Made by a program: the position numbers and the translations under genes. 64,000 nucleotides of DNA from Cafeteria roenbergensis (taxonomy: Eukaryota > Sar > Bigyra > Bicosoecida > Cafeteriaceae): NCBI GenBank assembly GCA_008330645.1, contig VLTN01000012.1:496001-560000 (forward strand), in the 5' to 3' direction. The notes under the pieces are model-generated. The model was not told the origin of the DNA and searched no databases. It was given only the letters and a program-made list of their open reading frames with translations. Within the stretch, counting starts at the first letter, position 1. Every line of letters begins with the position of its first letter. Positions 22,553 through 51,712 of the stretch are shown here, piece after piece.

Positions 22553-23181
22553 ATGGCAGACGCCGCCCCAGCAAAGCGCACGCCGTCCGACTTCCTCAAG
22601 GACGTCATCGGCCGCCGCGTCGTCGTCCAGCTCAGGACGGGGACCACGTTCCGCGGTGAGGATGGCAAGCCGCGGCCCGCGATTCGCCCCGACGCTCCTG
22701 CATTGGGGCACAGGCTGGTCCCGTGGGGCGTACGGGGTGCGCATTCCTCCCTTTGTCCAATTGATTCCCAGTGGCATGCGCGCCGACTGCGGAGAGGGTC
22801 CAGGCTGCGCGCAGCGCCCGAGCGGAATTGCCAAGTCACTCGAGGCGCTGGCCGTGGCTCCCCCTCCCGCTCGCTTTGCTCCGCTCTCCGGCGCTGCAGG
22901 CGTGCTTGCCTCCCTTGACGGGTTCATGAACATCGCCATGGAGCAGACCGAGGAGTGGAAGGACGGGCACTTGTCCTCCAAGCTGGGCGACGCGTTCATC
23001 CGCGGCAACAACGGTGAGGCCCGCGCCCTTGCGCTCCCTGCCTCCGCAAAGCTCGGCCGCTCCGCGCCTGTGCCGTATAGAGCGATGCCGCATCCACTGT
23101 CCCCCGCCCCGAGCCTGCCCCTCCTGCCCGCGCGTGCGCCGTGCAGTGCTGTACATCTCTGCGGTGAAGAAGCGAGGATAG
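22553..23181 (+). CDS. LSM6: U6 snRNA-associated Sm-like protein LSM6
   Basis: A subunit of the heptameric LSM rings: LSM2-8 binds U6 snRNA in the nucleus, and LSM1-7 promotes mRNA decapping in the cytoplasm. Three exons (22553-22655, 22900-23013, 23147-23181) give 83 aa, the normal size. Joining them yields PSDFLKDVIGRRVVVQL, then RGVLASLDGFMNIAMEQTEE with Sm motif 1 (xxLDGFMN), and GDAFIRGNNVLYISAVKK with Sm motif 2 (IRGNNV). Both introns start GTGAGG and are phase 1. The start is the only ATG in frame that gives the family N terminus. Confidence 0.95.
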
Positions 23182-23555: not shown

Positions 23556-25567
23556 TCAGGCATCCATCTCCTCCTCCTCGCCCTCGCCGTCCTGGGTGTC
23601 GGCGGAGATCTCTTCGTAGTCCTTCTCCATGGCCGCGAGGTCCTCACGGGCCTCGAGGAACTCACCCTCCTCCATGCCCTCACCGACGTACCAGTGCACG
23701 AAGGCACGCTTGGTGTACATCAGGTCGAACTTGTGGTCCATGCGGGCCAGCACGCCGGCGATGGCGGTGGTGTTGGAGATCATGCACACGGAGCGCTGCA
23801 CCTTGGCGAGGTCGCCGCCGGGCACCACGGTGGGGGGCTGGTTGTTGATGCCCACCTTGAAGGCGGTCGGGCACCAGTCAACGAACTGGATGGTGCGCTT
23901 GGACTTGATGGTCACGATGGACGCGTTCACGTCCTTGGGCACAACGTCACCGCGGTACATCATGCAGCAGGCCATGTACTTGCCGTGGCGCGGGTCGCAC
24001 TTGACCATCATGTTGGCGGGCTCGAACACGCCGTTGGTGATCTCGGCCACGGAGAGGGCCTCGTGGTAGGCCTTCTCGGCGGGGATGACCGGGGAGTAAG
24101 AGCAGAGGGGGAAGTGGATGCGCGGGTACGGCACCAGGTTGGTCTGGAACTCGGTGAGATCCACGTTGAGCTGGCCGTCGAAGCGCAGCGAGGCCGTGAT
24201 GGAGGACACGCACTGGGCGACGAGGCGGTTGAGGTTGGTGTAGGTGGGGCGCTCGATGTCGAGGTTGCGGCGGCAGATGTCGTAGAGGGCCTCGTTGTCC
24301 ACAAGGAAGGCCACGTCGGAGTGCTCGAGCATGGCGTGGGTGCAGAGCACGGAGTTGTACGGCTCAACCACCACGGTGGAGATCTGGGGGGAGGGGTACA
24401 CCGCGAACTCGACCTTGGTCTTCTTGCCGTAGTCGATGGAGAGACGGTTGAGGAGGAGGGAGCCGAAGCCGGAGCCGGTGCCGCCACCGAAGGAGTGGAA
24501 GATCATGAAGCCCTGGAGGCCAGTGCAGTTGTCCGCGAGCTTGCGGGTCCGGTCGAGCACCAGGTCGATCACCTCCTTGCCGATGGTGTAGTGGCCACGG
24601 GCGTAGTTGTTGGCGGCGTCCTCCTTGCCGGAGATGAGCTGCTCGGGGTGGTACAGGTTGCGGTACGTGCCCGTGCGGATCTCGTCCACGCAGGTGGGCT
24701 CAAGGTCCACCATGAGGCAGCGCGGCACGAACTTGCCGGCGCCGGTCTCGGTGAAGAAGGTGTTGAAGGAATCGTCCTCGATGGCCGCGCCCTCGGGCTG
24801 CTGGCCGTCCGGCTGGATGCCGTGCTCAAGGCAGAAGAGCTGCGGAGAGGAAAGCGCGAGAGACCAGAGCGGGTTTGGGGCAGGAGGGCTGTGGAGGCGG
24901 GCAAGCTGCCGGAGGCTAGGGCTCGAGACGCGAGCGCGATTGGCTTCGACCGTTGGAGCGAGGGGCCGGACGCTGCGCGAGCGAAGCGATGCTCACCTCC
25001 CAGCAGGCGTTACCCGTCTGCACACCGGCTGCGAGGGAGGAGCGCGCAATCGGACACCGGGCGAGTTGGGGCTGGTGGGGTCGGGCGGGAGGGGGCGATG
25101 GCGGCCGCGGGGCTTGCGCGTTGCGCCAGCTGCTCGTTGCAAAGCAATCTGCTCGCGGGACTCACCCTGGCTGCAAGGTCGCGCGGAGGAAGCGCGTTGC
25201 GCGGGAGAGGAGCAAGAGGGAACCAGAGCAAGGAGGCAGTGAGAGGCGCGGCGCTCGTGGTGCGCAGGGGCAGCGGCGGGCGAGGTTCGTCCAACTGAGC
25301 GCGGCAACGGCCTGATGGCGGTTGGGCTGGCGGATTGCGGCCCGCCCGCAGCGCGCCGGCTGCCCCAGCTGGCGGGTGCTCACCCGAGCTGGATGAGGAT
25401 GATCTGCGTACCAAGAAGGTGGGCGCGGGCGGGGACGAGCGCGGGGTGCGGTGGCCTGGGGCGGCGGGGCGCAGGCCGCGGGCACTCCCAACCGCTTGCT
25501 GCGCGCCGGCGTCCGGCACGCCCTGCGCGCGCCGCGGCCGCGCGGCCACGGGGCTCACTTCGCGCAT
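23556..25567 (-). CDS. Alpha-tubulin
   Basis: Forms the tubulin heterodimer of microtubules. Five coding exons join exactly to 449 aa: 25559-25567 (Met-Arg-Glu), 25384-25403, 25166-25170 (a 5-nt microexon), 24997-25028 and 23556-24839. The spliced N terminus is [20 protein letters not shown]. It is alpha, not beta, as shown by [51 protein letters not shown], the GTPase-activating Glu in [18 protein letters not shown], and [19 protein letters not shown]. Two standard modification sites are missing. The Lys40 loop is shortened ([14 protein letters not shown]), and the tail ends [10 protein letters not shown] with no terminal tyrosine. All introns begin GTGAG. This may be one of several alpha-tubulin genes. 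Confidence 0.95.
25166..25170 (-). other. 5-nt microexon (CCAGG) of alpha-tubulin
   Basis: On the minus strand the sequence is ...CTTGCAG|CCAGG|GTGAGTCC. The preceding exon ends CTC GG and the next begins CC GGT. Only this insertion gives CTC GGC CAG GCC GGT (Leu-Gly-Gln-Ala-Gly), the invariant nucleotide-binding GQAG of tubulins, in frame. Confidence 0.85.
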
Positions 25568-26072
25568 TGTGTCTGAAACTAGATCTCAAGAAAGAGAGCG
25601 AGTTGAAAGTTCGGCGAGGCGCGGTGGCTTGTGATGGGCCTTGGCGTCCGTCGAGGGGTGAGTGCGTCGCCAACGGCTGCTGGCTGCCAACGTCTTTTTG
25701 CCGCGCCTCGCCATCCGGGGCTCTGCCGGCCGTTCCGGCGCTCTGCCGCGACCGCTGGCACTGCCAGCGCCGCCGAAAGCTCCGCGGCGCGAAGCGCGCC
25801 GTGCGCTGCCGCTGGACGCCACGACAGCGGGGCGGGGCGTTTGCTCGCTTGGCCTTCGGGCCGGGGCCCTGCAACTGCACTCCCGCGCGCGAAATTGGCC
25901 GCCGGGAGCAGTCGGCACTCAGACCACAATTTCGCCACCGGGCAGCCACCCCAGGTGGCCGCCGCACGCAGCAGCGCGCGCAGGGCAGGGGCACATGATC
26001 GGTAGCACAACGCGCATAGCTCGCGCGACTTGGGCCCCGGAGAGGCGGGGCTGGCCGAGCCGGGCTGAATAC
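25568..26072. other. Intergenic; alpha-tubulin upstream region
   Basis: This 505-bp stretch contains the alpha-tubulin promoter and the methyltransferase 3' end. I see no gene or repeat. Confidence 0.5.
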
Positions 26073-26960
26073 TCAGCGCTTGCGCAGCACGGTCACGCCG
26101 TCGGCGAGCGGGAGCAGGCAGATGTCCCAGCGCGTGTCATCCTTGAGGTCCTCGTTGAGTTTGCGGATGGCGGTGGTGTCGGCGTCCGCGAATTCGGCCG
26201 CAATCACCCTGCCGCTCCAGATGGTGTTGTCGACGACGCACAGGCCGCCGCGCTCCAGCAGGTGGAAGGCGTGCTCAACGTAGGCCGCGTAGCTGGCCTT
26301 GTCGGCGTCAACGAAGACGAGCTGCGCCTGCCCCTCGCCCGCCGCCCCTGCGACCGCGCCGCCGTCCATGCCCGCGCGCACCGCGGCGGCGGCGTCCTTG
26401 CTGAAGCCCAGTGCGCGGATGAGGCGCATGCTGCGCACAGCGGGGCCCTTGACGTGCTCCACGCGCTCGCCGACGCCGGCAGCGTCCCACTGCGCGCGCG
26501 CCTGGGCGAGGTGGTCGTCGGCGATGTCGAGGGTGTACACCCGCTCCTTGGTGCCCAGCGCGAGGCTCAGGGTGCCGTAGCCGGTGAAGCAGCCCACTTC
26601 GACCACGTTGCGGGCAGACACGATCTTCGCCATGGTCTCCAGGAACTGCCCCTCGTCGGCCGAAACGCACATGCGCGAAATTCCTCCCAACTTGTTGGTG
26701 TAGTCGCTGATCTTGAGATGCTGCGGGGTCAGCCGCGTGCCCACCTTGACGCAGTACTCGTGCAGCGCGTCGCTCATGCCCGACGTGCGCTGCTCGCGAT
26801 ACCAGGCCGGCTTGGCGCCTGCGCCCTTGCCGTGGCTCCGGCGCGCCCACGCACGCGCGATGGCGACGCCGGCTGCAGCGCCTGCCGCAGCGCACGCGGC
26901 GCCGATGAGCACCATGCGGCCCGCGTCAGAGGTTCCGGCGGACACATCAGAAGAAGCCAT
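26073..26960 (-). CDS. SAM-dependent O-methyltransferase, COMT/CCoAOMT-like, membrane-anchored
   Basis: A 295-aa single-exon protein of the Methyltransf_3 family, which transfers a methyl group from S-adenosylmethionine to a catechol-type hydroxyl. Residues about 16-38 (MVLIGAACAAAGAAAGVAIA) form one hydrophobic segment, followed by a basic stretch, as in animal COMTD1, so membrane anchoring is likely. The catalytic domain shows SRMCVSADEGQFLETM, the SAM loop VVEVGCFTGYGTLSLAL, the acidic YTLDIADDH, and metal/active-site motifs LVFVDADKASY and GGLCVVDNTIWSGRV. It ends normally at GVTVLRKR. An Ala/Gly-rich insert lies before LVFVDADK. The natural substrate cannot be read from sequence. Confidence 0.9.
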   Translation of the reverse strand: MASSDVSAGTSDAGRMVLIGAACAAAGAAAGVAIARAWARRSHGKGAGAKPAWYREQRTSGMSDALHEYCVKVGTRLTPQHLKISDYTNKLGGISRMCVSADEGQFLETMAKIVSARNVVEVGCFTGYGTLSLALGTKERVYTLDIADDHLAQARAQWDAAGVGERVEHVKGPAVRSMRLIRALGFSKDAAAAVRAGMDGGAVAGAAGEGQAQLVFVDADKASYAAYVEHAFHLLERGGLCVVDNTIWSGRVIAAEFADADTTAIRKLNEDLKDDTRWDICLLPLADGVTVLRKR

Positions 26961-50955: not shown

Positions 50956-51712
50956 CGTCGCCCACTGGTTTCTTGCCGCCTCGGTTGCGGTGAGCTCCGC
51001 GGGGCAGCGGTGCCGACGGGGCCGGGTTCCGCCCAAGGGTGGCGCTGCGGCAGCAGGGCAGAGAGGGCCGCAGTGGACAGTGAAACGCCTTCAAACGTCT
51101 GCGGGGGACAGGCAAGGCGCCACCGCCGGAGCCGCAGTCACCCGCGGGTGCGCCGGCATGGCCGGCACTGCAAGCGCGCTCGCGTTGTCGAAAGGCAAGC
51201 CGCGAGTGTACGTGCAGCTCTTGCCCGCGCACCCACATTTTCGGCGTCCAGTCTCGCACCTGCCGACGCCTTCGCGACAGGCAGGAACAAAGCGCCGATG
51301 GACGGCTTGGCGCGCCCTTCCGGTTTCAGCACGAGTGCCGATTTAGTCGGCTGGCAATTCCAGAATGCTTGCGCTGATTGCCGAGGCCGTCTCCAGAGCC
51401 GCCAAGCTCGAACCCTGCCGTCACAGGTCGGATGCAGTGGCTACTGCCGCAACTCTGGGCGCGAGCGGAGCGATGTTTGGGGCGCCACGAGGCACCAGGG
51501 TCGGAACACGCGCGATAGCCTGGTGGCAAAACAATGTAGAGAGCCGGCTAGTTGTGAGCCCGAGTTGCACGACGCCCCTCGGCCGGAAGGTGGCTCAAAG
51601 TATGCAAAGCCGGAGCGCACAGTCCCGCCGCCACACCCCGCGCCGACCCCCAGGCTTGGCATCGGTCCGCGGGCCTTGCCAATTCCCATCTCCCTGGCTG
51701 GTTGTCGGCTGC
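50956..51712. other. Divergent intergenic region
   Basis: This 757-bp stretch lies between the giant gene and the RRM gene and should hold both promoters. It may also include 5' exons of the RRM gene, whose start is uncertain: the frame is open back to 51365. No repeat or RNA gene seen. Confidence 0.45.

Follow-up and report, generated by a model that had tools for sequence, protein, structure and literature searches.

A five-nucleotide exon very probably completes the N terminus of a divergent alpha-tubulin gene in the bicosoecid Cafeteria roenbergensis

Can an exon of only five nucleotides be a regular part of a tubulin gene? The question is raised by a minus-strand alpha-tubulin gene (25567–23556) located in a 64,000-nt stretch of the Cafeteria roenbergensis genome, which is referred to here as the window. 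The gene reads as five coding exons of 9, 20, 5, 32 and 1284 nt (Table 1), and the order of elements on the minus strand is ...CAGCTCGG/GTGAGC...TTGCAG/CCAGG/GTGAGT...CTCGCAG/CCGGT.... Joined to the GG before it and the CC after it, CCAGG completes the codon of Gly10, encodes Gln11 and opens the codon of Ala12. The spliced product is an intact alpha-tubulin of 449 aa, with a frame that is open throughout and a terminal stop codon. Its tubulin domains are full-length, with Tubulin and Tubulin_C both above their Pfam cut-offs, and its sequence is of the alpha type: a 390-aa part of exon 5 matches alpha-tubulins in the PDB with a best E-value of 4.8e-231 (among the best 60 of 162 matches). As read from the sequence, CCAGG would be a microexon: it is internal, very short and bordered by a 3' and a 5' splice site. 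The size limit given to microexons differs between sources, being ≤27 or ≤30 nt in the available parts of PMC8378409 and PMC8042270, with upper limits of up to 51 nt in those of PMC10250204; the limits of PMC8378409 and PMC8042270 make the 20-nt exon 2 a microexon too. The original prediction had placed the microexon at 25159–25176, an interval that does contain it; CCAGG itself is confined to 25170–25166, the remainder being the flanks TTGCAG (25176–25171) and GTGAGT (25165–25160).

Table 1. Exons and introns of the alpha-tubulin gene as read on the minus strand of the window
Feature	Position	Strand	Sequence and reading	Basis
Exon 1, coding part	25559..25567	-	ATGCGCGAA = Met-Arg-Glu; donor GTGAGC; coding end only, 5' UTR not delimited	
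Intron 1, 155 nt, phase 0	25404..25558	-	GTGAGC...ACGCAG	Frame enumeration and spliced alignment
Exon 2, 20 nt	25384..25403	-	ATCATCCTCATCCAGCTCGG = Ile-Ile-Leu-Ile-Gln-Leu-Gly; 3' end CTC GG	Frame enumeration and spliced alignment
Intron 2, 213 nt, phase 2	25171..25383	-	GTGAGC...TTGCAG	Frame enumeration and spliced alignment
Microexon, 5 nt	25166..25170	-	CCAGG	Frame enumeration and unprompted spliced alignment
Intron 3, 137 nt, phase 1	25029..25165	-	GTGAGT...TCGCAG	Frame enumeration and spliced alignment
Exon 4, 32 nt	24997..25028	-	CC GGT first, Glu22 last	Frame enumeration and spliced alignment
Intron 4, 157 nt, phase 0	24840..24996	-	After codon 22	Spliced alignment
Exon 5, 1284 nt	23556..24839	-	Rest of alpha-tubulin and stop codon; GC3 0.95	Pfam

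We enumerated the GT/GC-AG two-intron solutions over positions 25403–24997, requiring at least 30 nt for each intron and a product of 57 nt. Exactly one solution of this normal length encodes Gly-Gln-Ala-Gly, and CCAGG is its middle exon. With a single GT/GC-AG intron, four products are in frame and free of stops, all of them carrying 30–33 extra residues. When splice-site rules were dropped altogether, none of the 58 single excisions that leave 57 nt produced Gly-Gln-Ala-Gly; the nearest ones replace Gln by Ala, Ser or a stop and end at non-AG dinucleotides. Ten GT-AG two-intron solutions of at most 75 nt are open when introns of at least 40 nt are considered, and GTGAG and GCAG are found at all four sites only in the solution with CCAGG. 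The claim that the invariant motif can be made only by joining CTCGG, CCAGG and CCGGT is in agreement with this unique GT/GC-AG solution and with the 0/58 single excisions, and the motif, the junction sequences and the frame argument were all borne out by the enumeration. Splicing the gene in silico without CCAGG shifts the frame and leads to a stop at codon 16. Skipping would consequently leave no tubulin, and constitutive use of CCAGG would follow if the gene works.

The same structure was returned by a spliced aligner guided by the other alpha-tubulin of the genome, with a splice-site preference limited to GT over GC, and AG. With no microexon specified in advance, it built exons of 9, 20, 5, 32 and 1281 nt, and once GTGAG and GCAG were mildly favoured, the paralogue and human alpha-tubulin references led to identical small exons. 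As a null, the 672 nt upstream were shuffled 400 times with dinucleotides preserved and aligned to each reference (paralogue and human). The observed score was reached by none of the shuffles with either reference (z 8.9 and 6.2), while some Gly-Gln-Ala-Gly was built in 3/400 shuffles with each reference, at a lower score, and exons no longer than 8 nt were used in five (paralogue) and three (human) of the 400. Without a splice-site bonus, the human reference recovered the microexon at just one intron penalty, the lowest one of 8; at penalties from 14 to 32 (four of the five settings) the first 12 residues were dropped and three introns were not opened. The microexon call thus depends on either the closer paralogue or local splice-site knowledge. 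How often the pattern arises by chance was estimated from its frequency. GCAG-NCARG-GTGAG is found 15 times, the present case included, on both strands of the 36.3-Mb genome (36,303,456 bases in 167 contigs were searched), corresponding to about 7e-5 per 355 nt, with one occurrence in the backward control. For the looser AG-NCARG-GT, four occurrences on the two strands of the window (128 kb) correspond to about 0.011 per 355 nt; dinucleotide shuffles of the interval contain it at a rate of 0.0015, and none of 20,000 contains it with GTGAG. The predicted 5-nt exon therefore draws support from a unique frame solution, an unprompted alignment and 0/400 shuffles, and very probably the second, divergent alpha-tubulin gene of the bicosoecid Cafeteria does contain CCAGG as an exon that is included constitutively.

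The original prediction had proposed looking for a second alpha-tubulin gene of different structure, and such a gene was found at locus L003 (G000:C26), without a microexon. In spliced alignment its codons 2–22 are uninterrupted, the ATG presumably lying in an upstream exon. The window product and the L003 paralogue are identical at 355 of 449 residues, and in our own reading the window copy appears the more divergent of the two and L003 the more canonical alpha-tubulin. An intron after codon 22 is common to the window gene, L003 and three beta-tubulin genes. All three beta-tubulin genes encode codons 1–22 in one undivided first coding exon of 66 nt followed by that intron, and the small exons of the window gene add up to the same length (9+20+5+32 = 66 nt). 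As read, three additional introns divide the codon 1–22 block in the window gene, and both a gain here and a loss elsewhere would fit. We also observed that the Lys40 position is without a lysine in both alpha-tubulins, the local sequences being MPSDTTFGGG in L003 (904–2724) and QPEGAAI in the window copy (24839–23556), and that a C-terminal tyrosine is absent from both as read. Acetylation of Lys40 is typical of axonemes, so that the absence of this residue is odd for a flagellate.

Splice sites of the genome were collected from six well-aligned tubulin genes, in which GTGAG donors are present in 17/17 introns and GCAG acceptors in 16/17, the four introns of the window gene included. The introns flanking the microexon measure 213 and 137 nt, compared with a median of 179 nt and a range of 111–661 nt for 28 reference introns, of which 13 are from other tubulin genes and 15 from eight small-GTPase genes. 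Four of the 28 are 355 nt or longer, which places the 355-nt intron that skipping would create within the observed length range. The GTPase loci were hand-picked from 63 family matches, several of them for gaps between exon matches, and their alignment favoured GTGAG and GCAG by construction; the donor GTGCGA of L075 and similar sites are uncertain. The intron and exon lists behind the length counts were transcribed by hand from the alignments; 62 kinesin, HSP70 and actin loci, with many implausible introns, and the divergent tubulins L007 and L008, for the same reason, were excluded. For reference introns of this genome, both introns flanking the microexon are of ordinary length and have ordinary splice sites. 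The 15 internal coding exons of the reference genes range from 37 to 1048 nt, next to which the 5-nt and 20-nt exons are conspicuous, and this small sample of genes gives no sign of a microexon-rich genome.

Other readings of the locus have to be weighed against the 5-nt exon. Exon 2 could be joined by one longer intron to a cryptic acceptor in intron 3, which would add some 30 residues to the protein; alternatively, the N terminus could have been lost. Four GT/GC-AG single-intron products indeed meet no stop in the 3' part of intron 3, and alignment to the human reference leaves out the N terminus at four of five intron penalties when splice sites earn no bonus. All four products, however, place their 30–33 additional residues at or next to residues 10–12, which we take from tubulin structure to be the nucleotide-binding loop; moreover, it would be a coincidence that upstream exons with consensus sites exist and that the lengths add up to exactly 66 nt, and none of the 400 shuffles matches the score, which makes this reading very unlikely. 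The use of another tiny exon, such as the 5-nt GGTGA with its acceptor CCAG and donor GTCCC, or a lone G as an exon of 1 nt, is extremely unlikely. Both are within the ten open two-intron solutions, but their products have Gly-Val-Thr-Gly or a five-residue deletion where both references have Gly-Gln-Ala-Gly, and GTCCC and CCAG are unlike the GTGAG donor of 17/17 and the GCAG acceptor of 16/17 tubulin introns.

It is highly improbable that the gene is a pseudogene or an assembly error with a meaningless reading frame. The loss of the window copy might be tolerated given that a more canonical alpha-tubulin exists, but the frame is open from end to end, the product agrees with the paralogue at 355 of 449 residues and consensus splice sites are present exactly at the places that the frame requires; an error is also opposed by the polishing of the assemblies with PacBio and Illumina reads, as described in the available part of PMC6972860. 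A further possibility would add to the 5-nt exon reading rather than replace it: the microexon could be a regulated switch, conditionally skipped, with the early stop destroying the mRNA and lowering the output of this isotype. Its length, which is not a multiple of three, the stop at codon 16 upon skipping and a 355-nt skipping intron within the observed range are compatible with such a switch, which we nevertheless consider unlikely, both flanking sites matching the usual sites of the genome and thereby favouring constitutive use. It is likewise improbable, though conceivable, that the 5-nt exon, obligate, frame-breaking and next to one of 20 nt, serves as a gate in splicing, its skipping or inclusion setting the amount of the divergent isotype.

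How might a 5-nt exon with constitutive use be spliced? Most likely, recognition would take place across each flanking intron (intron definition), and removal would be sequential, one intron after the other, in which case U1 and the 3' splice-site factors would at no time be required to bind simultaneously on either side of the 5 nt. The first step would fuse the microexon to its neighbour and the second site would then be in a normal exon context. Sequential removal would be sufficient in view of the ordinary lengths and splice sites of the flanking introns, and neither the special spliceosome nor the recursive splicing that had been suggested for this exon is needed. A recursive splice site is a zero-length exon at which AG/GT regenerates a donor and no exon nucleotides are kept. 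We rejected this candidate, as the message retains the five nucleotides that separate GCAG from GTGAGT and without which the frame is lost. Introner-type introns are recently inserted introns whose sequence is repeated at other loci; such an origin of the additional introns is not supported, as positions 25022–25580 match only themselves in the genome when very common words are skipped. Sequential or intron-defined splicing has been proposed for animal microexons in the available parts of PMC8378409 and PMC10250204, where in the SRRM4 set the downstream intron is more often removed first. The Cafeteria genome has a gene with WW and FF domains of the PRP40/TCERG1 kind (L083, G000:C4), which could be either of the two; its presence is compatible with the proposed mechanism without being specific to it, and offers weak support for a PRP40-dependent route.

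A 5-nt exon had also been described as close to the lower limit for spliceosomes, which does not hold: the available text of PMC8831610 documents 1-nt microexons in the plant genes APC11 and VPS55, confirmed by RNA-seq and sequencing of RT-PCR products, and a rice transcript (Os08t0562700) with a 5-nt microexon, supported by RT-PCR sequencing. These plant cases resemble CCAGG in that the exon is tiny, is not a multiple of three and is needed for the right protein; they were missed by annotation, and the VPS55 exon is flanked by GTRAGT donors (PMC8831610, as far as available). They differ in being RNA-confirmed, with the 1-nt exons conserved across land plants, whereas the Cafeteria case, in a bicosoecid stramenopile, is read from genome sequence. 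With the neural microexons of animals (PRP-40/SRRM4), CCAGG shares the steric problem for which intron definition or sequential removal has been proposed; in contrast, those exons are frequently alternative, frame-preserving and neuronal in the parts of PMC8378409 and PMC10250204 available, while CCAGG breaks the frame and would be constitutive if the gene works. A further comparison is with the L003 alpha-tubulin, of the same family and with the intron after codon 22 in common, but without the microexon. The notion that the exon is part of an essential gene does not follow either, the more canonical L003 being present in the same genome. A narrow search of one open library, which is no proof of absence, found no paper title on stramenopile microexons and, among the titles listed, none on a tubulin microexon; the microexon passages in the available part of the Creolimax paper (PMC4739763) concern methods alone.

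Cafeteria burkhardae is, we presume, the same organism as the Cafeteria roenbergensis analysed here. The name Cafeteria burkhardae is used in the accessible parts of PMC8547959 and PMC10945749. Strain BVI of Cafeteria roenbergensis is represented by an assembly of 170 contigs and 36,327,047 bp with 70.1% GC, gene models were built by BRAKER with splice sites detected by HISAT, and a public transcriptome of strain E4-10P was used for annotation (available part of PMC6972860). Standard annotation does not favour tiny exons, as stated in PMC8831610 where available.

The surroundings of the gene and other loci yielded several separate observations. An LSM-domain gene (22773–23012, plus strand; Pfam LSM, 35 bits), which to us reads like LSm6, lies tail to tail with the tubulin gene, and an O-methyltransferase gene is located at 26960–26076 on the minus strand (Pfam Methyltransf_3, E 2.2e-41). 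A minus-strand stretch of 59 aa (21950–21774) has no Pfam match; from its motif we presume a resemblance to the N-terminal end of a PTEN-type phosphatase. At 51036–39037 on the minus strand a frame stays open for 3999 codons, with only weak LRR and WW matches in Pfam. Relatives of the 390-aa tubulin part were not found in a scan of viral contigs. Elsewhere in the genome, HSP70 is present in at least two copies on G000:C154 (L042, L050, L053, L056 and L057), three matches having an in-frame TGA, and an intact copy is on C16. The actin-related loci on G000:C36/C100 and on C10/C110 are very similar pairs on different contigs, possibly uncollapsed alleles. An rRNA pattern matched only a low-GC organelle contig. 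This contig reads TGA as Trp in our own reading, and this use of TGA is given for Cafeteria mitochondria in the available part of PMC6972860. Neither psaA nor psaB was detected in the genome, a result that speaks against an algal source, although assemblies may also omit plastid contigs.

The published model of the window gene may misread its first 12 residues. If confirmed by cDNA, CCAGG would be a clear-cut stramenopile example of an exon of 5 nt, and it would make a test case for the splicing of a tiny exon because a paralogue in the same cell lacks the microexon. Should the improbable splicing gate prove true, the factors known to act in plants and in animal neurons would be shown to be dispensable for microexon splicing.
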